In this document: positions 32,046 through 43,056 of the stretch, piece after piece
How the letters are laid out: every line of letters starts with the position of its first letter
Position numbering within the stretch: position 1 is the stretch's first letter
NCBI GenBank assembly: GCA_020439745.1
Contig: JAGQSC010000025.1
Span: 1-64,000 of the forward strand
Direction: 5' to 3'
DNA length: 64,000 nucleotides
Source: Acidobacteriota bacterium
GTDB lineage: Bacteria > Acidobacteriota > Holophagae > Acanthopleuribacterales > Acanthopleuribacteraceae
Notes under the pieces: generated by a model
Databases searched by the model: none
What the model saw: only the letters and a program-made list of their open reading frames with translations
Told to the model about the DNA's origin: nothing
Made by a program: the position numbers and the translations under genes

Positions 32046-32864
32046 ATGAGCCAAAAGAAAGTCATACTCATTACAGGGGCCAGTTCGGGTATGGGTAAAG
32101 AAACGGCTCGTGACCTTATCCGCGCAGGCCACACGGTGTATGCAGCAGCTAGGAACTTGGCCAACATGCAGGACTTGTCGGAAGCAGGAGGGCACGCCTT
32201 GTCATTGGATATCGCCAAAGAGGGAGAGGCAGCGCAAGTGGTTGCACGCGTAATCGAAGAACAGGGTCGAATTGATGTTTTATGGAACAATGCTGGATTT
32301 GGTTTGTATGGACCCGTGGAACAGGTTGAGTTGGACCAAGCCCGGTACCAATTCGAAGTGAACCTGTTTGGTTTGGCGGCCGTGACAAAAGCTGCGCTGC
32401 CCACCATGCGGGCGAAACGCTCTGGATTGATCATCAACACCTCTTCGATGGGTGGGAAAATCTACACGCCGTTAGGGGCGTGGTATCACGCCACGAAGCA
32501 TGCTCTGGAAGGGTGGAGTGACTGCCTTCGACTGGAGCTCAAAGAGTTTGGTATTAAGGTGGTTATTCTTGAACCAGGCCTGATTGAAACGGGTTTCGCT
32601 GCTGGCGTGAAGCATCACTTCGCGGATGAAGCAGTGAGTGGACCGTACCAACGGATGGTGCAGGCACTGCTCAAGACAGCCGAAAGCGGTGCCATGAAGG
32701 GATCGGATCCGTCCGTTATTTCGAAAGCCGTTCGCAAGATCATTCGAGCTAAAAGACCCAGAACCCGGTACCTGGTGGGCGCTATGGCCAAGCCTTTGGT
32801 CTATATTCGCAATCTTTTGGGTGATAGGGCATACGACAAAATCATCCTGTCTCAAGTGAAATAA
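32046..32864 (+). CDS. Short-chain dehydrogenase/reductase
   Basis: This 272-residue SDR has the cofactor motif TGASSGMGKETARDL, the NNAG motif (LWNNAGFGLYG) and the catalytic Ser-Tyr-Lys set (INTSSMGGK, WYHATKHALEGW with the Tyr in the YHATK form). The C-terminal part is of the classical fatty-ester/ketone reductase type. The substrate is unknown. It is divergent from the AraC regulator and convergent with the cytochrome operon. Confidence 0.92.
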   Translation: MSQKKVILITGASSGMGKETARDLIRAGHTVYAAARNLANMQDLSEAGGHALSLDIAKEGEAAQVVARVIEEQGRIDVLWNNAGFGLYGPVEQVELDQARYQFEVNLFGLAAVTKAALPTMRAKRSGLIINTSSMGGKIYTPLGAWYHATKHALEGWSDCLRLELKEFGIKVVILEPGLIETGFAAGVKHHFADEAVSGPYQRMVQALLKTAESGAMKGSDPSVISKAVRKIIRAKRPRTRYLVGAMAKPLVYIRNLLGDRAYDKIILSQVK

Positions 32865-32934: not shown

Positions 32935-33564
32935 CTATCGCTTGTGAACTACTAATGGTGGTTGACTGGGTTGGTGTAGCTGATTGATTTGCTCCTTGAA
33001 GTTCTGCACGTCATGACCTAATGCATCGCCCCAGACGACGTGTCGTTCCAGGGCTTCCCGATAGTTGGCATGTCGCGATAGGATCTGCTGGGTAACTGCG
33101 TAGGCGTCCTCAGTTTGACCTAGTGCCGCCAAGGACTTGGCCAAACTGAGCCGCGAGCGATCGTCATCCGGGCTATGACCTAAATAGATTTCAAACCAGC
33201 GAACTGCTTCGTCATGTTTCTTTGCCTGTGAATAAAGGTTTGCCAGTAAGCGTTCTGCGTAGGGGTATTGTTCTCTTTGTGCCACCAGTTGCTTGATCTG
33301 GGCCATCGCGTCGTTCAGTTTGTTCTGGCTCAAAGCCCGATCAATTTCCTCCCAACTTGGGTTGGCGCTCGCGACGCCGTGGGTTACAAGTGCATGCTTC
33401 TGCTGTTTATGGACCATCAGAAACGCGACGAGCAACACCACACAGCCCACGATTCCCCCAAGCAACCAAAAGACGTGTACCGAGCGCCTGGCCGGAACGC
33501 CGCAGTTGGCGCAATAAGTGAACCCTTGGGTGCGTGCGCCGCATTTGCGGCAAGTGCCGCTCAA
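32935..33564 (-). CDS. Zinc-ribbon, membrane-anchored TPR protein of the cytochrome operon
   Basis: The 209-residue protein starts with a zinc ribbon (CRKCGARTQGFTYCANCG, residues 5-22) and has one membrane helix (VFWLLGGIVGCVVLLVAFLMV). It continues with two to three TPR-like helical hairpins (YPYAERLLANLYSQAKKHDEAVRWFEIYLGHSPDDDRSRLSLAKSL...). With the ribbon in the cytoplasm, the TPR part would face the periplasm. It is the last gene of the operon, overlapping the upstream flavoprotein gene by 4 nt. A chaperone or assembly role for the cytochromes, as TPR proteins of cytochrome maturation play, is inference. Confidence 0.8.
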   Translation of the reverse strand: MSGTCRKCGARTQGFTYCANCGVPARRSVHVFWLLGGIVGCVVLLVAFLMVHKQQKHALVTHGVASANPSWEEIDRALSQNKLNDAMAQIKQLVAQREQYPYAERLLANLYSQAKKHDEAVRWFEIYLGHSPDDDRSRLSLAKSLAALGQTEDAYAVTQQILSRHANYREALERHVVWGDALGHDVQNFKEQINQLHQPSQPPLVVHKR

Positions 33565-34877
33565 GTTGTTGCCACCATTTCCCGGCTTTTCCCACCAAAG
33601 GCGATACCTATGTCGTGTAACAACTTGAATGGGGGCACTCCGCCTGCAAAGACAAACACATAATCATTGGGTAGGTGATGCACGGTTTCGCCTTGCACCA
33701 CGTCGACAAAATCGGGACCAATCTCCCGTATGTCTGAATCGAACAGCGTCTCTATTTCGCCTTTCTCCAACATGTCGAACAGACGCTCTTCGTTGCGTTT
33801 TTTGATGCGGAAAAACTTGGATTTCCGGTAGGAAATCGTGACCGTGTTGCCCGGTTGTTTGGCCAAACCCATGGCGGCTTCCACTGCGCTGTCGCCACCG
33901 CCGACCACGAGGAGGTGGTTGCTCTTGTAGTGCACCGCATCCATCAACTGGTACATCACCTTGGATTGATCCTCGCCAGGCACACCCAGTTTTCGTGGCG
34001 TGCCTCTGCGGCCCAACGCTAAGACGACATAGGTGGACGTGAGAACGTCCGTAGCTGTTTGGATCACGAATCCGCCGCTGCCCTTTGTGGTGATGCCGAT
34101 CAACTGTTGGCCCGTTCTCAGGTTTAGTTGGTTCTTCGTTATTGCAGATTGCCAGATGCTAAGCAGCTCCTCTTTTTCATACTCTGATTTGCGCAACATA
34201 CCGTAGCCAGGAATTTCGACGGGTTGGGTGAGGACGAGTTTCTTGCGGGGATACTGCAAAATCGTGCCGCCGGGTTCCTGTTGGTCCAAAACTACGTAGT
34301 TCAGTCCGCGTTGCGAGGCTGTGAGACCGGCACTCATGCCAGCGGGTCCCGCACCGATCACCACTAGGTCGAATTCACAATCGTTTTCTGGTGCTTCGGG
34401 TAAAGATTGAACGCAAGTCGTACCTTGTTGAATGGCGTTCTTGATCAATGCCAGACCACCGAGCTCACCCACCACGAAAAGGCCTGGGACACTGCTCTCG
34501 AAAGTGGGTGTCAGGATTGGGATGTCCGGGCGCGATTTGAGGTCGCCTAGCCCCACTTTCAGCGCCTCCACCGGGCAGGCCTCGGCACATAGTCCGTGCC
34601 CCACACACCGATACCCATTGATAATGGTGGCCTTTCCGCCGACAAGACCCAACACGCCCCCTTCCGGACATGCTCGGATACAAGAGCCACAGCCTATACA
34701 GGCCACATCGTCAATCAGCGGGTATTGGGCCTTTGGTTTATCAATTCCCAGCGATACGGCTTCCCTTTTGTTGACGAGGTTGGTGCGCTGTTTGCGGATA
34801 CTCTGTAGGGCATAAGGCAACACAACCAGCGTGACGAATAGGGCTGTGCCCATCCAAATCACAACGGACTCGCTCAT
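33561..34877 (-). CDS. Membrane-anchored FAD/NAD(P) oxidoreductase with two ferredoxin clusters
   Basis: The 438-residue protein has an N-terminal membrane helix (VVIWMGTALFVTLVVLPYAL) and a 2[4Fe-4S] ferredoxin domain (CIGCGSCIRACP at 60-71; CVGHGLCAEACP at 91-102). A thioredoxin-reductase-like flavoprotein follows, with FAD motif VVIGAGPAGMSAG at 172-184 and NAD(P) motif LVVGGGDSAVEAAMG. The second cluster has His94 where the second Cys is expected. The protein probably moves electrons between NAD(P)H, FAD and iron-sulfur clusters at the inner membrane. It is 12 nt downstream of the barrel gene within the cytochrome operon. Confidence 0.88.
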   Translation of the reverse strand: MSESVVIWMGTALFVTLVVLPYALQSIRKQRTNLVNKREAVSLGIDKPKAQYPLIDDVACIGCGSCIRACPEGGVLGLVGGKATIINGYRCVGHGLCAEACPVEALKVGLGDLKSRPDIPILTPTFESSVPGLFVVGELGGLALIKNAIQQGTTCVQSLPEAPENDCEFDLVVIGAGPAGMSAGLTASQRGLNYVVLDQQEPGGTILQYPRKKLVLTQPVEIPGYGMLRKSEYEKEELLSIWQSAITKNQLNLRTGQQLIGITTKGSGGFVIQTATDVLTSTYVVLALGRRGTPRKLGVPGEDQSKVMYQLMDAVHYKSNHLLVVGGGDSAVEAAMGLAKQPGNTVTISYRKSKFFRIKKRNEERLFDMLEKGEIETLFDSDIREIGPDFVDVVQGETVHHLPNDYVFVFAGGVPPFKLLHDIGIAFGGKSREMVATT

Positions 34878-34889
34878 GGGTTGGTGCTC

Positions 34890-36479
34890 CTAAAACCTGT
34901 AACCGAATTCAGCAAACAACTTAAGTCCTTTGGATTCGTCACCTTGGTTTTGTTCCACTTGGAGATTGCCAAAAAAGTGTTTCCCAAAATAAGCGCTTCC
35001 CTCGAGACCAATCCAAGTATTAGTGCGGTCTTCCAGAGTGCTCTGGATCTCGTATGACGAATAGCTATAGGTGGCAGCCAAGCTGTGGCCGCTGTGGAAA
35101 CGTTTCCCCAGTCTTACGGATGGGTTGAAGCCCTGAGTCAATCCGTTGTCAAAGCCAGATGCCCTGATATTTAAGGTGAGGCCGTCGACAAAAAATCGAC
35201 CAAAATAAGTGTTCAAGTAGTAGGACGTGGCATCGGTGTCATCGCCTTCCTTACTGCGCACACCATAGCTCGCCATGATTCGGGCGGTTGCCGTGAGCTT
35301 CATTTGAACGTTAGCCCTCAATCCACGTCGAAATAGGTCGTCGAAGAACCGCTCGTCTTCTGTGATCAACTCGTAGGTGCGGTAGTTGCGGCGCGTATCG
35401 TAACTCAACCCTAGATTTAGACGATCAGTAGGGCGGTATTGTGCACTCACGTATAGATTAGTCCACTGGGTGGTCTTTCCTGTTGCTTCTTCGCGCCAAT
35501 CTCGATTGATATCCACTTCGGCCGATTGGTACACGGTGAGCTTGTTACCGCGATAGCCCAGATTGAAGTGCAGATACTCGCGATTGATTTCGCCATCGGT
35601 GTATTCGCCCACCGCGGCAATAGCAGCTTGCCATGGTGATGCGTGCTTGGCGGACCATCCCGAATATTGGAATGCCACACCCACTTTTTGTATGCTGGTG
35701 GTCACATCGGAGTACTGCCAAGTAGGTTGCGTGCCACCCAGTATGCTCAGTTGGCTTTTGCCGAAGTGCAGGTTGAACTGGCCACCATCTAGAGGTCCCA
35801 CACCTGAGATTCCGCGTGGAATGATACGCCCCAAACCAAAGCTGATGCGCGACGATTCCGCTTCTCGCTGTATCGATGCCTCGTAGACGCGGTTGTACCA
35901 AACCGTATCGTCCGATCCAGTTCTAAATGGTTGATCGCGTTGCGTGTAGCGTGTACGCGTGCGGACCCTTAACGCATAGTTGCCGCCCCAAAGTTCTTCA
36001 CCCCTAAAACTCACACGCAAGCCCGGTTGCGTGAAGTCACGCTGGTTATCGGTATCGTCCATAAATTCGTAATACTGAACCGAAATAGAGCCACGAATGG
36101 CTCGGTTGGTATTGCGTTCGCGGCTTGGGGATTGCTTCACTGATTTGGTCACAGGCACAGTCTCCTGTGTCTGCGGTTCTTCACGAACAACTTGTTTGCG
36201 CAAGTGCGCCTGATCACCTAACTGAAGTGTGTTCTGGCGTGCGTCGATTCGACAGGACGAACGTTTTTCAGAGACGGATATCACTTCCGAGTTTGCCAAC
36301 CACTGTCCGTCGCGATAGAAGGCAAACCGGTCTCCCACGGCTACACCGGAATTGGATCCTGCGTCCACGTAGACGAGGTCTGCGCTGATGTAAGTGATCT
36401 TTGCGGTCACGTCTTGGGCGTAGATGCAGAGGCCAGAGAGAAGAACCCACAAAACGCGCATGTGCAGTTTACCGATCAT
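34890..36479 (-). CDS. Outer-membrane beta-barrel protein, cytochrome-associated
   Basis: The protein of about 529 residues has a signal peptide (MRVLWVLLSGLCIYAQ), an SH3-like beta domain of about 70 residues (ITYISADLVYVDAGSNSGVAVGDRFAFYRDGQ), a charged linker and then about 380 residues of alternating amphipathic strands. It ends in an aromatic C-terminal strand (LKLFAEFGYRF) typical of outer-membrane proteins inserted by BamA. The start is ATG 36479 (GGGAGAAG upstream) or 36461. The frame extends 143 codons further, but that part lies over the cytochrome gene. Its place between multihaem genes suggests the porin-like sheath of an electron conduit. Confidence 0.82.
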   Translation of the reverse strand: MIGKLHMRVLWVLLSGLCIYAQDVTAKITYISADLVYVDAGSNSGVAVGDRFAFYRDGQWLANSEVISVSEKRSSCRIDARQNTLQLGDQAHLRKQVVREEPQTQETVPVTKSVKQSPSRERNTNRAIRGSISVQYYEFMDDTDNQRDFTQPGLRVSFRGEELWGGNYALRVRTRTRYTQRDQPFRTGSDDTVWYNRVYEASIQREAESSRISFGLGRIIPRGISGVGPLDGGQFNLHFGKSQLSILGGTQPTWQYSDVTTSIQKVGVAFQYSGWSAKHASPWQAAIAAVGEYTDGEINREYLHFNLGYRGNKLTVYQSAEVDINRDWREEATGKTTQWTNLYVSAQYRPTDRLNLGLSYDTRRNYRTYELITEDERFFDDLFRRGLRANVQMKLTATARIMASYGVRSKEGDDTDATSYYLNTYFGRFFVDGLTLNIRASGFDNGLTQGFNPSVRLGKRFHSGHSLAATYSYSSYEIQSTLEDRTNTWIGLEGSAYFGKHFFGNLQVEQNQGDESKGLKLFAEFGYRF

Positions 36480-38775
36480 CTTCTTCTCCCGTGGGGTGGC
36501 AGGTGTAGCAAGCCATGGAGTCGTACACGTAACCGTTGACTTCATCGTGCTCGTCATCCATTTCACCGCGAGGGTGAGCATGGCAGTCAATGCAACTGAA
36601 TATCTGGTAATTGGATGGGTTGATGTGACAGTCCACACAGGTGTCCCACTCGTTGCGATGTGGTCCTGTGTATAGGGGGAACATGTGCACGAAATTTGCC
36701 TGCTCCCAGTCCTGAGTATTGTGGCAGTCTTCGCACGTTGTGGGGAACTGAGCAGCCACATGGTTGGGGTCTGTGGCATTATCGTAATCCGAACGGTGGC
36801 AGGCGACGCAGTCACTGGGCGTGTTGTTGTAGCCCGATGCGTGGCATTCGAGACAATCCAGTGGCACGTGGGCACCCGTAAGTGGGAACTGAGTTTGGTT
36901 GTGATCAAACGTGGCAGGTGACCAGGCTGTGGTGTTGTGGCAGATGAGACAATCGGTGCTGAATTGGTTGGTCACGTGATTGGGATCGGGCACGCTTTCA
37001 TAGTCAGAGATGTGGCATGCATAGCAATCGGTAGGCGTGTTGTTGTAGCCCGATACGTGGCATTCGAGACAATCCAGTGGCACGTGGGCACCCGTAAGTG
37101 GGAACTGTGTTTGGTTGTGATCAAATGTGGCAGGTGACCATGCATCCGTGTTGTGACAGATGAGGCAGTCGGTGCTGAACTGATTCGCCACGTGATTGGG
37201 ATCGGGCACGCTTTCGTAATCAGAGGTGTGGCATGCATAGCAATCGGTAGGCGTGTTGTTGTAGCCCGATGCGTGACATTCCAGGCAATCGAGCGGTACG
37301 TGGGCTCCCGTGAGCGGGAACTGAGTTTGGTTGTGGTCGAACGTGGCAGGTGACCATGCATCCGTGTTGTGGCAGATGAGACAATCGGTGCTGAACTGAT
37401 TCGCCACGTGATTGGGATCGGGCACGCTTTCGTAGTCCGTGGCGTGACAGGCGTAACAGTCAATGGGTGTGTTGTTGTAGCCATCTGCGTGGCATTCCTG
37501 GCAGTCGAGCGGCATATGTGCGCCGGTAAGCGGGAACTGGGTCTGGTTGTGATCGAGGTTGGCGGGTGACCAGGCCGAGGTGTTGTGACAGATGAGACAG
37601 TCTGTACTGAACTGGCTGGCCACATGGTTGGGGTCAGGTACGTTTTCGTAGTCCTGGCTGTGACAGGAATAGCAATCAGCGGGGGTATTGTTGTAGCCAT
37701 CTGCGTGGCATTCCTGGCAGTCGAGCGGCATATGTGCGCCGGTAAGCGGGAACTGGGTCTGGTTGTGATCGAAGTTGGCGGGTGACCAAGCCGAGGTGTT
37801 GTGGCAGACGAGGCAGTCGGTGCTGAATTGGTTGGCCACATGGTTGGGGTCGGTCACGGTGTTGTAGTCAGCTGTGTGGCAGGAATAGCAGTCAGTGGGT
37901 GTCTGTGAATAGCCGTCCGCGTGACACTCAATGCATTCCAGCGGTGTGTGCGCACCCGTAAGCGGGAATTGTGTTTGGTTGTGATCGAACACGGCAGGAG
38001 ACCATGCCGATGTGTTGTGGCAAATGAGACAGTCAGTGCTGAACTGGTTCACCAAGTGATTGGGTTCAACAACCGCATTGTAGTCGGTGTCATGACATGC
38101 AAAGCAGTCCGTGGGTGTCCCTTGAAAAGTGGACTCATGACAGGCAATGCAATCCAGACCCGAATGACCCTGATTGAGGTCAAAGCCTGGTGGGTGCTGA
38201 TAGTTTGTTTGTTGCCAGTCGTTTGCGGTGACCGCATGGCAAACTTCGCAGGTGCGATCAAACCCTGCCAAGACATGGCTGGGGCTGCGTGTGTTGGCGA
38301 AATCGGGTGCGTGGCATCCCTCGCAGGCGTCGGACGTGAAGCCAAACTCCAATCTAGTTTGTTGGCTATGGCAGGCTTCGCAGTCCAGGCGTGCATGTTC
38401 ACCTAACAATGGAAACAAGGTTTGTTGGTGTCGCTGAATCATGTTCATGCGACTTTCCCAACTGGTGTCTACATGGCAGGCCTCACAATCAATGCCGAAC
38501 TGACTGCGATGGATGTCGGTGTGGCAACTGGCGCAATCTGTCTTGGCCTCACTGAAGTCCAATGAGGTGTGACAGGCTTTGCAAGTCGTTTGTTGGTGGG
38601 CAATGGAAAGGGGGAAGGCTGTTTTTTGGTGGTCAAAATCCATGGACGATCGCATGGTGACCCAATCTTGGGTGGTGTGGCACGATTCACAGGCCAGCGA
38701 AAGCTCTTTGTGCGGTGACTGTTGGCTCCAACACGATGGTCCGGCAACGATCAACAATGTGACAATTGCTTTCAC
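36469..38775 (-). CDS. Giant multihaem c-type cytochrome, 31 CxxCH motifs, 72-residue repeats
   Basis: The 768-residue exported protein has a signal peptide (MKAIVTLLIVAGPSCWSQ) and 31 CxxCH haem-attachment motifs by my count. The central part is six consecutive 72-residue units, each with three CxxCH (patterns DCLICHNTxAWSPA, LDCxECHADGYNNTP and DCYACHxxDYESVPDPNH). The unit also contains DHNQTQFPLTGAH, the distal His pattern of doubled-CxxCH cytochromes. The GTG start overlaps the previous stop by one base (TAGTG) and has AGGAGG upstream. It should be a long, wire-like periplasmic or surface electron carrier, which is inference. Confidence 0.93.
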   Translation of the reverse strand: MKAIVTLLIVAGPSCWSQQSPHKELSLACESCHTTQDWVTMRSSMDFDHQKTAFPLSIAHQQTTCKACHTSLDFSEAKTDCASCHTDIHRSQFGIDCEACHVDTSWESRMNMIQRHQQTLFPLLGEHARLDCEACHSQQTRLEFGFTSDACEGCHAPDFANTRSPSHVLAGFDRTCEVCHAVTANDWQQTNYQHPPGFDLNQGHSGLDCIACHESTFQGTPTDCFACHDTDYNAVVEPNHLVNQFSTDCLICHNTSAWSPAVFDHNQTQFPLTGAHTPLECIECHADGYSQTPTDCYSCHTADYNTVTDPNHVANQFSTDCLVCHNTSAWSPANFDHNQTQFPLTGAHMPLDCQECHADGYNNTPADCYSCHSQDYENVPDPNHVASQFSTDCLICHNTSAWSPANLDHNQTQFPLTGAHMPLDCQECHADGYNNTPIDCYACHATDYESVPDPNHVANQFSTDCLICHNTDAWSPATFDHNQTQFPLTGAHVPLDCLECHASGYNNTPTDCYACHTSDYESVPDPNHVANQFSTDCLICHNTDAWSPATFDHNQTQFPLTGAHVPLDCLECHVSGYNNTPTDCYACHISDYESVPDPNHVTNQFSTDCLICHNTTAWSPATFDHNQTQFPLTGAHVPLDCLECHASGYNNTPSDCVACHRSDYDNATDPNHVAAQFPTTCEDCHNTQDWEQANFVHMFPLYTGPHRNEWDTCVDCHINPSNYQIFSCIDCHAHPRGEMDDEHDEVNGYVYDSMACYTCHPTGEEDDR
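36766..38061 (-). repeat. Six tandem 216-bp units inside the cytochrome gene
   Basis: Exactly 6 x 216 bp lie between the AsnHis codons at 38061 and 36763. Each unit encodes 72 residues beginning NHxxNQFSTDCL and ending xxDP. Units 3-5 are the most alike, while the outermost ones have diverged. A partial unit precedes (TPTDCFACHDTDYNAVVEP) and another follows (NHVAAQFPTTCEDCHNTQDW). The repeats make open antisense frames with the same period, which are not genes. Copy number could vary between strains or be misassembled. Confidence 0.95.
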
Positions 38776-40580
38776 TAGTTCCTCCTGTTAGGTCCGTGAC
38801 AGAACTCGCATTCAGCAGCCAACGGCCTGTAGCGAACAAACACGCCCTCGGTATCTTGGACGCGGACATGGCATTGGTCACAGTCAATATTGGCGTGCGC
38901 TCCCTCTAAAGGAAAGCGACTATCGCGATCATGAAAAAATCTTAATGTTTGCCACTGTGTGGACTCGTGGCAGGCATTACATGACCGAGCGAACTGATTT
39001 CGGTGCGGATCGTCATGGCAACTGTCACATGTGTCGTCGATGGTTTGGAACACCATGGCACCTGCCACAGTGGGCAAATGGCATGCTTTACAATCGACGT
39101 CATTATGGGCACCCACCAACGGAAATCGGGTGACTGCGTGATCGAAATGGGATTGCGGCCAGGATGTAACTGAATGACAACTTTCACAGGTCGCGCCCCG
39201 GATTGATCCTTCATGGGGATCGCGATGACAATCCTGGCAAAGTGCCTGCTCGAAACGAAATTTCTGGGTCTTTTGGCCGTGCATGAGGATGGGCGTGTGG
39301 CATTCGCTGCAGGGTGTGGCCAGGTGTCCGCCTTCCAAAGGGAATAGGGTTTGAGCATGGTCTTGGGTGCCGAAATGGGCGGGCACGAATCCGGTCACTT
39401 GATGGCATTCTTCACAAGCCCCTTGTTGGGGACGATGCTTGAATTGGCCGACATGGGTGTCTTTATGGCAGTTGGTACAGTTCTCGAAAGAGATGTTGGT
39501 GATTGCGCGCCCATCAGGGTGACAGGACCGGCAAACTACGTCGCGATGTTTGCCAAGGAGGGGGTATCGCGTTTGGTTGTGATCAAATGCCGGGGTTCGA
39601 TGCCAACCTGAAGTCTGGTGGCAGTCTTCACAATGGGGGCCTAACCGAGCACCATGGATATCGCTGTGGCAGTCCGAACACGCTTGATGGGGGATACCTT
39701 TGTACTTCACGTAGGGTCTATTTCGGTCCGAAGGCACAATCTGTTTGTGGCATGTATCACATTTCACCGAGATGTGTTTGCCCGTAAGTGCGAAGGCTGC
39801 TTTTTGGTGATCAAAATAGGATGCAGGCCTAAAGGCTTCGACGTCATGGCACCCCGAACAGTCTCCTTTAAGTTGGCCTTGATGGGCGTCCTCATGGCAA
39901 GCATTGCAGGTCGCATGATCCATGGGCTTGTAGCGGATGGGTTGCTCATCGCCCTCATGGCACTGGGAACAGGTCAAGTCGCGATGGGCGCCTTCCAACA
40001 CGAATGCGGCCCGTTGGTGATCAAACAGCGTGGCCGGTTTCCAGTTAATCTCTTCATGGCAGGAGGAACAATCGTCGCCCAGCTGGCCCTGATGAGGGTC
40101 TGTATGACACGAACTGCAAGCCGTAGTAAGACCCAGGAAGGTTCGCGTCAGGTCTTTGCCCTTCTGTATTAGGATTTCGGGGTATTGAACGTGCTTTGGG
40201 TCGTGGCAGGTACGGCAGTCTGGTTTTTTGTGTGCGCCTATGAGCGAAAAACCGGTGTCCTTGTGATCGAACGCTGTAGTGCCTTGGGGCCAATGCACCA
40301 TGTCGAAGTCGCGCCCATGATGATCACTGTGACAGGTTTCGCAACGTTGGTAGCTTGGTTTCGCGTGAAGTCCTTTTTGTGCTTGAACGCGGTCTGCCAG
40401 TAGTTCGTGACATGTCAGACACTTTTCTCGAAAGGATTTGGTGCCGAATTCGTGACACTGAACACAGTTGGCGACGCCTTCAAGATGTTCGTGTTTTTGG
40501 TGCAGTTTGCCCGGTGATAACTGCCCAAACGCGGCGCCGAACCACAGGAAAACCAGGAACGGTCGCATTACGCTTTCCAT
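38775..40580 (-). CDS. Multihaem c-type cytochrome, 23 CxxCH motifs
   Basis: The 601-residue exported protein (signal peptide MRPFLVFLWFGAAFGQ) has 23 CxxCH motifs by my count. They are arranged in the doubled-CxxCH/cytochrome c3-like pattern with distal histidines in FDHQRAAFVLEGAH, FDHQKAAFALTGKH, FDHNQTRYPLLGKH and FDHAVTRFPLVGAH. Unlike its neighbour, the repeats have diverged strongly. It follows the b-type membrane gene with a 13-nt overlap and precedes the 31-haem gene with a 1-nt overlap. It probably accepts electrons from the inner-membrane protein. Confidence 0.93.
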   Translation of the reverse strand: MESVMRPFLVFLWFGAAFGQLSPGKLHQKHEHLEGVANCVQCHEFGTKSFREKCLTCHELLADRVQAQKGLHAKPSYQRCETCHSDHHGRDFDMVHWPQGTTAFDHKDTGFSLIGAHKKPDCRTCHDPKHVQYPEILIQKGKDLTRTFLGLTTACSSCHTDPHQGQLGDDCSSCHEEINWKPATLFDHQRAAFVLEGAHRDLTCSQCHEGDEQPIRYKPMDHATCNACHEDAHQGQLKGDCSGCHDVEAFRPASYFDHQKAAFALTGKHISVKCDTCHKQIVPSDRNRPYVKYKGIPHQACSDCHSDIHGARLGPHCEDCHQTSGWHRTPAFDHNQTRYPLLGKHRDVVCRSCHPDGRAITNISFENCTNCHKDTHVGQFKHRPQQGACEECHQVTGFVPAHFGTQDHAQTLFPLEGGHLATPCSECHTPILMHGQKTQKFRFEQALCQDCHRDPHEGSIRGATCESCHSVTSWPQSHFDHAVTRFPLVGAHNDVDCKACHLPTVAGAMVFQTIDDTCDSCHDDPHRNQFARSCNACHESTQWQTLRFFHDRDSRFPLEGAHANIDCDQCHVRVQDTEGVFVRYRPLAAECEFCHGPNRRN

Positions 40581-41458
40581 GCAATTCCAAAGGCCAGCGC
40601 GATGCCGATGTGTATCAGCATGATGGTGTACATAACGGTAGCAAACGGCCTGTGGAACACGTGCCAGTGGTGAAAGAGCGATAACACGGTACGCAAACTG
40701 GCAGCCCTGCGTTTGAGCGTAGCGTAAGTATGGGCCTTAACCATGATGTCGCGTTGGTCTAATTCAGAATAGCCCTGTTGTTTGAGCAACAGGCGTGCCC
40801 TTTTGGTGCGCCCGGATCGTGTGATTCGTTCTCGGATCATCCAAAAGATGAATGGTATTTGGTGGCTAGGAGGATGTGGACCCAGCATGAGGCTGACCAA
40901 CCAATCAATCTGCTCAGCGTTCAACTGTTGCTCGAGCGTGGTACTCTCTGCTCGAAGGTTTTTGGTCAGCTCTTCGGCGGTATAGGCATCGCCCATAATG
41001 TTTCGTGGGATTTGTACGTACAGGTAACGGCCAAACACGCCGCTCAACGCAACCGCTACCATGGACCAGAAACTCACCGCCACAAGCCCATCCAACTTGA
41101 AGGAGGTATGCATAACCACGAGAAGCGGACCCACAATCCCGAAGAAGATGTGAAGATCCAGCCAGGTCTTTAGACGGCCCGCCTTACCCATGAGACGCGT
41201 GCGTTTACGCAGGGTGTATGACAGCATGGCGATCATCATGGCGGCACCCAAAATGCCGTACCATAAACCCCATGCCCCGGCTGGCCTCAAAAGACGGTAG
41301 TCGGGATGGTGAGGGCGCGATGCCAGTGGCGTCAAATAATAATCGAATCCCCGAATGAATGCCGCAACGATGATGGCTACCGACAGCACATATAAGAAGA
41401 TTAGGATCCGAGAAAACAGGCGTTTGGATGTCACATTCAACCTCATTGACTCCCGCAC
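40568..41458 (-). CDS. Ferric-reductase-like di-haem b membrane protein
   Basis: The 296-residue protein has five predicted membrane helices (about 14-34, 62-80, 101-118, 126-145, 272-290). It carries two H-X13-H pairs, His103/His117 and His269/His283, on separate helices. This is the pattern of ferric reductase/NOX-type haem b pairs that carry electrons across the membrane. A soluble charged segment (150-260) separates the helices. It is the first gene of the six-gene operon. A role as the quinol-to-periplasm or cytosol-to-periplasm gate to the cytochromes is inference. Confidence 0.82.
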   Translation of the reverse strand: MRESMRLNVTSKRLFSRILIFLYVLSVAIIVAAFIRGFDYYLTPLASRPHHPDYRLLRPAGAWGLWYGILGAAMMIAMLSYTLRKRTRLMGKAGRLKTWLDLHIFFGIVGPLLVVMHTSFKLDGLVAVSFWSMVAVALSGVFGRYLYVQIPRNIMGDAYTAEELTKNLRAESTTLEQQLNAEQIDWLVSLMLGPHPPSHQIPFIFWMIRERITRSGRTKRARLLLKQQGYSELDQRDIMVKAHTYATLKRRAASLRTVLSLFHHWHVFHRPFATVMYTIMLIHIGIALAFGIAWKA

Positions 41459-41766: not shown

Positions 41767-43056
41767 ATTAATTCTTTCGATAGGCTCGGTCTGTCAGCGG
41801 AGATCCTCCGCGCTGTTGCCGAGCAAAAATACACACAACCCACACCGATCCAGGCACAAGCGATCCCTGTTGTTCTCAGCGGCCGCGATCTGATGGCGGG
41901 TGCTCAAACGGGTACCGGAAAAACGGCGGGATTTACACTGCCTATCCTACAAAGCCTGTCCAGTCGCCGGTCGGGCGAGAAAAGGTCCATCCGATGTCTT
42001 GTTCTTGCACCCACGCGGGAACTGGCGGCACAGATTGGTGCCAGCATGTCTAGCTACGGCAAATACCTGCCGTTTCGGTCGGCCGTTGTGTTTGGGGGCG
42101 TGAATATTAACCGCCAAACTCAAATCATCAAATCTGGCGTGGATATTTTGGTCGCGACACCTGGGCGCCTTTTGGACCATATGGGTCGTGGCAATATAGA
42201 CCTGAAGCATCTCGAAGTCTTGGTGTTGGACGAGGCGGATCGCATGTTGGATATGGGCTTCATCCATGACATCAAACGCATCATGGCCGTACTGCCCAAA
42301 GAACGCCAGACCCTGCTTTTCTCCGCCACCTTTTCTGATGGCATCAAGAAATTGGCCCAAGGACTATTGCGCAACCCTGAAACGGTTCAGGTGGCCACTC
42401 AAAACAAGTCGGCTGAGGGCGTGCAACAAAGTGTTTGTCTGGTGGAAAAAGCGCACAAACGTGAGTTTTTGCAACAGATGATTACCACCAAGGATTGGCA
42501 GCAAGTGTTGGTGTTTACGCGCACGAAGCGCATGGCCAACCAATTGGCGAAGTTTCTCAATGCCGGTGGCATTCAGTCTTTGGCCATCCATGGCAACAAA
42601 AGTCAATCGGCCAGGACTTCGGCGCTCTCCAGTTTTAAAGGCGGCAAAACACGCGTGCTGGTTGCTACCGATATTGCTGCGCGCGGTCTGGACATCAAGG
42701 AGCTGCCTTACGTGGTGAACTTCGAGCTGCCAGACGAGCCCGAAGCCTATGTGCATCGCGTGGGCAGAACGGGAAGAGCAGGGCAGCGAGGGTTGGCAAT
42801 CTCCTTGGTAAGTGTTGATGAGCAGTCAAAATTGCGTGACATTGAGCGGCTCACCAAGCAACAGATCGCACGAGAAACGATGCCCAACAAACACAACCGG
42901 CGGGATGTGACATCGACCATCAGCAACAAGACCTTAACGCCACCTGTGACCGAAGCTCGACGGCAGTCCATGCAAAAGGTTCGTCCGTTGCGTTCCATGC
43001 CTCAACAATCGGTCTCCAAAGCGAGTTCTGGATTTGCCTTCAGCGTTTTTGACTGA
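41767..43056 (+). CDS. DEAD-box RNA helicase with apparent AUU start codon
   Basis: DEAD-box proteins unwind RNA with ATP. From 41767 the frame reads [19 protein letters not shown], then the Q motif [61 protein letters not shown] and [10 protein letters not shown], a complete core of about 429 residues like RhlE. No ATG, GTG or TTG exists in frame before the Met in DLMAGAQ (41893), which would remove the Q motif. ATT at 41767 lies 10 nt after GAGGAG (41751-41756) and aligns with the family's MxSF start. AUU initiation, as in infC, is therefore likely. Confidence 0.9.

Follow-up and report, generated by a model that had tools for sequence, protein, structure and literature searches.

A candidate PCC3-type trans-envelope electron conduit with a predicted cytosolic NAD(P)H module in Acidobacteriota and other phyla

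Gene content and setting of the operon

Six genes on the minus strand, here called A to F, occupy positions 32935-41458 of the window, the stretch of 64,000 nucleotides analysed in this study, which is part of contig C6 of a 5.1-Mb acidobacterial assembly (Table 1). An open reading frame check finds these genes, their strand, the overlaps at four junctions (13 nt at A/B, 1 at B/C, 11 at C/D and 4 at E/F) and the single gap (12 nt at D/E) exactly where the original prediction for this DNA had put them, and a recount of CxxCH motifs gives the same total of 54 across the operon, all of them in the two cytochromes. The block is self-contained: the gene of a DEAD-box helicase diverges from it at 41893, and a convergent SDR gene ends at 32864. 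A scan with a sigma-70 model, which is uninformative in Acidobacteriota, gave no promoter-like site for the operon, and a terminator search at the operon gave none that was convincing.

Table 1. Features of the operon, in positions of the window
Feature	Position	Strand	Description
A	40568..41458	-	296 aa; inner-membrane gate of the type of the PCC3 inner-membrane protein, by motifs; two b haems predicted
B	38775..40580	-	601 aa; 23 CxxCH; signal-peptide-like N-terminus; putative periplasm-spanning wire
C	36469..38775	-	768 aa; 31 CxxCH; signal-peptide-like N-terminus; putative outer wire of variable length
Tandem repeat within C	36796..38064	-	216-bp unit, 5.9 copies; 72 aa, a three-haem module, per unit
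D	34890..36479	-	529 aa; modelled outer-membrane barrel; SH3-like domain, residues 25-94; ~22-strand barrel, residues 128-528
E	33561..34877	-	438 aa; N-terminal membrane anchor; ferredoxin; FAD/NAD(P) oxidoreductase, residues 169-427
F	32935..33564	-	209 aa; zinc ribbon and TPR repeats with a single membrane segment; conjectural role in assembly

A second species of the same genus has all six genes, with a B protein 57% identical to that of the window and a C protein with 28 haems; it is the only one of 60 relatives in which the cytochromes are present. Since the congener has the complete set and the unit recurs across phyla (see below), the operon is not a chance effect. Cytochrome c assembly proteins and four haem-copper oxidases are encoded by the host genome, and additional cytochrome c7-type matches are found in it on contigs C10, C26, C51, C56 and C63 and at C6:104460-107430.

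The inner-membrane gate

Protein A had been described as a di-haem b membrane protein with an H-X13-H motif, and this motif is seen in it twice, as W99-x3-H103-x13-H117 and W265-x3-H269-x13-H283, with S139GxxG143 between the two. All four histidines (H103, H117, H269 and H283) are invariant in 23 homologues from many phyla. Searches of Pfam (0 families), NCBIfam and PDB sequences gave no match for A. In the AlphaFold model the long helices, including those at 96-117, 124-148 and 255-295, fit five membrane passes, which is consistent with placement of the three motifs on TM3, TM4 and TM5 and of a helical domain between TM4 and TM5. The model had no significant Foldseek match and was not used to argue for kinship of folds.

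The two multihaem cytochromes

B and C are made up of Cytochrome_C7/c3 repeats and are densely packed with haem motifs, at 26 and 25 residues per haem, respectively. In the window, no convincing lipobox is seen at the N-terminus of C. Among homologues, the haem number of B is near-fixed within each phylum: 17 of 23 Acidobacteriota have 23 haems, 23 of 28 Bacteroidota have 20, and 5 of 6 Pseudomonadota have 24. The haem number of C spans 12 to 64, mostly with increments of three. The counts for C equal 1 modulo 3 in 50 cases out of 62 (binomial P about 3e-14, with kinship ignored), and the C proteins of the window and of its congener are one module apart. The simplest reading of these haem numbers is that B is fitted to a fixed span, the periplasm, and C is free to lengthen outside; according to published models, 21-27 haems could span the periplasm (PMC10734462). 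The longest second cytochromes, of 61 and 64 CxxCH, are encoded at L092:1-6990 and L199:1765-6750.

In two acidobacterial loci, L207 and L210, B and C are fused in single gap-free frames with 53 or 51 haems; the first ~600 residues align with B in register, and the remainder aligns with C up to its C-terminal end. Three more (L206, L208 and L209) have the same start and then run off their contigs. The fusions in L207 and L210 indicate that B and C act as end-to-end neighbours.

The barrel and the TPR protein

The longest open reading frame for D reaches 36908, and the plausible start is at 36479, inside the end of C. D had been proposed as a barrel candidate, with structure prediction set beforehand as the check; the AlphaFold2 model (pLDDT 83.5) is indeed a barrel, with an SH3-like domain at the N-terminus and then about 22 strands. 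With this model as the query, Foldseek gave 292 matches to PDB folds at E<=1e-3; nearly all of the 50 listed are outer-membrane barrels, and the best among these are FimD and PapC. The domains found in F agree with its description as a zinc-ribbon/TPR protein, and F-like TPR genes adjoin A or E in other phyla. At L186:8671-10179 (Bacteroidota), A and an F-like gene occur without B-E, as either an orphan gate or a remnant.

Relation to PCC3 and other known systems

PCC3 was described in Proteobacteria in 2017 as a cluster that encodes a porin, a periplasmic cytochrome (median 21 haems), an extracellular one (median 34) and an inner-membrane protein carrying SGxxG and two WX3HX13H motifs; for this last protein, two b haems and action on the quinone pool were proposed (He et al., PMC5566968). 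Its function is still treated as unverified in later papers (PMC10734462, PMC12442390). A has the size of the PCC3 gate (~300 aa), both WX3HX13H motifs (TM3 and TM5) and SGxxG (TM4); B and C are two many-haem cytochromes with low numbers of residues per haem; and the barrel model of D and its fold matches predict an outer-membrane porin. That one cytochrome is periplasmic and the other extracellular is suggested by their fixed and variable lengths and by the B-C fusions. Moreover, a profile of A built only from Acidobacteriota and the window matches an A gene that lies beside 21-24-haem cytochromes in Thiobacillus L097 (142 bits), L109 and L138; homology to proteobacterial PCC3 gates was assessed on these three loci. 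At the level of sequence, therefore, A-D appear to be of the PCC3 type, fitting every PCC3 feature that was testable.

The operon shares with PCC3 (PMC5566968; Hoover et al. 2023, PMC10734462) the barrel, a first cytochrome of ~21-27 haems and a large second cytochrome with haem-bearing repeats. However, PCC3 was reported as a four-gene proteobacterial cluster, whereas here E and F share the operon, the host belongs to a non-proteobacterial phylum, and the comparison brings out gene fusions that were not reported there. The original prediction had regarded the whole arrangement as unfamiliar. This does not hold for the gate, the two large cytochromes and the barrel, which together make up PCC3 (PMC5566968), but does hold for the E partner and the spread beyond Proteobacteria, which are absent from the PCC3 literature examined: the word "ferredoxin" is not mentioned in PMC5566968 or PMC12442390, and no paper linking PCC3 with Acidobacteriota was found in the open-access literature, which is not proof of absence elsewhere.

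Other systems are more distant. PCC4 (PMC5566968) also combines a porin with multihaem cytochromes, and its inner-membrane protein has the same histidine motifs; however, its cytochromes have 4, 5 and 10 haems, and the inner-membrane protein was reported as not homologous overall to that of PCC3. A verrucomicrobial cluster of a porin and multihaem cytochromes (PMC5615132) is similar in composition and was ruled out as the nearest kin, as its cytochromes have 8 haems. The HmcA family was ruled out for the cytochromes on scores, and so was the MtrA/DmsE decahaem family (TIGR03508; 35.9 and 26.7 bits against a cut-off of 192.2). MtrCAB/MtoAB, Geobacter OmbB-OmaB-OmcB and Ext combine a barrel with two multihaem cytochromes, one periplasmic and one outer, and are expected to do the same job, but we know of no such gate or NAD(P)H module in these units. 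Two H-x13-H helices are also characteristic of NADPH oxidases and ferric reductases, and in the E-A fusions (see below) an NAD(P)H-flavin module is likewise present on the same chain. In contrast to these enzymes, A does not match the ferric reductase/NADPH oxidase (FRD) model of Pfam, the flavin module is of the YpdA/thioredoxin reductase type and comes with a ferredoxin, and A would feed multihaem cytochromes.

It has been proposed for PCC3 that large numbers of haems could hold charge (PMC10734462), and B and C might by analogy be a periplasmic electron store (capacitor), or reduce periplasmic substrates, with the barrel incidental. We consider this highly improbable, as the barrel gene keeps its place beside the cytochrome genes in different phyla and the variable length of C is hard to explain in a fixed periplasm.

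The ferredoxin/FAD/NAD(P) partner

E had been predicted to be a membrane-anchored ferredoxin/FAD/NAD(P) protein, and both 4Fe-4S and pyridine-nucleotide oxidoreductase domains are found in it. Its N-terminus is a hydrophobic segment followed by RKQR, so that by the positive-inside rule the rest of the protein would be in the cytosol. The two motifs of the dicluster ferredoxin are C60, C63, C66 and C70, and C91, H94, C97 and C101; His94 replaces a Cys in the second motif, as it does in 53 of 91 homologues in a pattern search. In the E proteins of Bacteroidota and Pseudomonadota loci (e.g., L099 and L229), the first motif reads CIGSGAC, with Ser for the second Cys, as compared with CIGCGSC in the window, and the type of cluster may differ between lineages. 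The FAD/NAD(P) domain is nearest to YpdA/Bdr, and the nearest solved relatives are YpdA/Bdr and thioredoxin reductases; E itself is not YpdA (157 bits against an equivalog cut-off of 339.9). A CxxC motif in the FAD part is present in only one of the 91 homologues, and E is thus unlikely to be a disulphide reductase.

The association of E with A was counted from A loci, since a search that starts from E would be biased. E is present in 20 of the 23 A loci of Bacteroidota, often in the order A-(F)-E-B-C-D, and one of the three that lack it is cut by the end of a contig. Of the 6 A loci in Pseudomonadota, 2 have E next to A in divergent orientation, and 2 more have it at a distance of 4-8 kb. Of the 32 Acidobacteriota with A, 21 (probably 22) carry E in the A locus and 3 carry it elsewhere, and no E was found in 7; the last two groups indicate that the conduit can work without E or with another partner. 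In the opposite direction, all 25 acidobacterial genomes with a strong E match carry A, which is found in 32 of 297 overall; by genus, all 23 genera with E fall within the 30 with A out of 167 (hypergeometric P about 2e-22, a value to be taken with caution because the genomes are related).

E and A are encoded in a single reading frame in Planctomycetota (L074, L075, L082, L101, L103, L106, L220 and L221/L077, the last two being two copies of Poly30, whose fusion has 742-744 aa; eight fused genes are counted) and also in L127 (Deltaproteobacteria by title, Myxococcota in the NCBI taxonomy), where the fused gene overlaps B. The planctomycete fusions and that of L127 are on separate branches of the E tree, and two independent fusion events are therefore likely. 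These fusions are the main evidence that E would feed A. In a quick tree, E of the window groups with its congener, then with a Calditrichota sequence (84), then with two other Acidobacteriota and Krumholzibacteria (97*), and stands apart from the main acidobacterial clades; Acidobacteriota require at least 8 label changes on this tree, which suggests horizontal movement or old duplication.

It is also conceivable that E is no donor of the conduit but a regulator, a detoxifying reductase or a separate co-transcribed enzyme, and that A-D are fed by menaquinol. The kinship of E to YpdA/Bdr and thioredoxin reductases would suit such a role, and E is missing from about a third of the acidobacterial A loci, where A-B-C-D persist. 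On the other hand, the fusion of E to A on two branches of the E tree, the strong nesting of E in genomes with A and the near-absence of CxxC from its FAD part make this improbable.

Distribution across phyla

Full-length homologues of A were found in 32 of 297 Acidobacteriota, in about 40 of the 395 genomes from the phylum to which Arenibacter belongs, and in 6 of the 398 from that of Thiobacillus; short A matches of ~190 aa in the Bacteroidota search were left out of the count. A search for synteny, suggested in the original prediction, shows that A-B-C-D synteny recurs in Acidobacteriota, Bacteroidota, Pseudomonadota, Planctomycetota and others. In loci fetched via E, A lies beside such cytochromes in Planctomycetota, Zixibacteria, Eisenbacteria, Gemmatimonadota, Nitrospirota, Ignavibacteriota and Deltaproteobacteria/Myxococcota; in Calditrichota, Krumholzibacteria and Bdellovibrionota there are cytochromes, barrel and E, with no A on the contig examined. 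The presence of the unit in about ten further phylum-level groups beyond Proteobacteria appears to be new. Among the records that have it, Arenibacter sp. F20364, Thermobacterium salinum TK19130 and Planctomycetes bacterium Poly30 are titled as isolates.

Weak matches to A (80-135 bits) beside 10-haem or FHA proteins (L216-L219 and L230-L240) were set aside as other systems. At L216:9426-12484, and also in L217-L219, a weak A homologue is followed by a 10-CxxCH protein with a C7/MtrC-like part and two FHA domains. At L070:9605-15332 (Acidobacteriota; L222 and L223 are similar), a 1061-aa protein that combines FHA, ferredoxin and FAD domains with eight CxxCH motifs has as its neighbour an 840-aa protein with cNMP-binding, ferredoxin and A-like di-haem parts; judging from the domains, the pair looks like a signal-controlled transmembrane electron-transfer system. 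Finally, many acidobacterial loci have between D and A a gene of family G, of ~270 aa and with no Pfam match (e.g., L042:7532-8350 and L062:11884-12693), which is absent from the window.

A possible electron path

The operon is probably a PCC3-type trans-envelope electron conduit with a cytosolic NAD(P)H module of its own. A trans-envelope conduit is what had been proposed for this DNA, and synteny, motifs, the barrel model and gene fusions of two kinds support the proposal well; D is modelled as a barrel, and no related operon was found in which the cytochromes belong to another known pathway. E would be held at the inner membrane by its anchor, with the soluble part on the cytosolic side; it would take electrons from NAD(P)H via FAD and Fe-S clusters and pass them to A, in which two b haems on the two H-x13-H helices would carry them across the inner membrane, in the manner of NADPH oxidases and ferric reductases. 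The 23-haem protein B, a wire whose length is nearly fixed, would bridge the periplasm, and C, a 31-haem wire growing by three-haem modules, would continue through or beyond D to the cell surface; F may help assembly. Cofactor loading, locations, the path itself, its direction (outward is favoured) and the substrate are all what we infer. The E-A fusions favour NAD(P)H over menaquinol as the donor.

The same proteins could also work inward. C and D would then accept electrons from outside the cell, donated by Fe(II), Mn(II), minerals or another cell, and B and A would deliver them to the quinone pool or, via E and with the use of membrane energy, to NAD(P)+. Such a direction, with A acting on quinones, has been proposed for iron oxidisers (PMC5566968, PMC10734462), the PCC3 gate gene was up-regulated in iron-oxidising cells (PMC12442390), the host has four haem-copper oxidases, and some loci are without E. 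We nevertheless regard inward flow as unlikely here, since electrons from such donors would have to move uphill to reach NAD(P)+, and the E-A fusions speak for a direct connection to nicotinamide rather than one to quinone alone.

Outward flow has a cost of its own. In NADPH oxidases, electrons that flow outward from the cytosol dissipate the membrane potential. Transfer from NADPH to most extracellular acceptors would be downhill, and electrons leaving the cytosol via A would likewise dissipate this potential, so that an NADPH-fed route would be more like redox disposal or reductive attack on substrates outside the cell than energy-conserving respiration, which looks less likely on this route unless A also takes electrons from quinol.

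A broader proposal can be made tentatively, as a possibility somewhat short of an even chance: that these operons are widespread envelope-spanning NAD(P)H oxidoreductases, in which cytosolic NAD(P)H is wired directly to the exterior via E-A-B-C-D, bypassing the quinone pool, and the path is carried by one E-A protein in some lineages and by one B-C protein of ~50 haems in others.

Implications

Since 2017, PCC3 has been a gene cluster with no identified cytosolic partner, and E is now proposed as a recurrent one. The E partner, the fusions and the breadth of phyla are unreported in the PCC3 literature examined, and the partner together with the E-A fusions (including that of Poly30, a cultured planctomycete) and the B-C fusions gives an electron path that can be tested. 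If the proposed path is true, many soil and marine bacteria that are not thought to be electroactive could use NAD(P)H directly for electron exchange with their environment, and their redox balance and their part in metal and humic cycling would have to be read differently.
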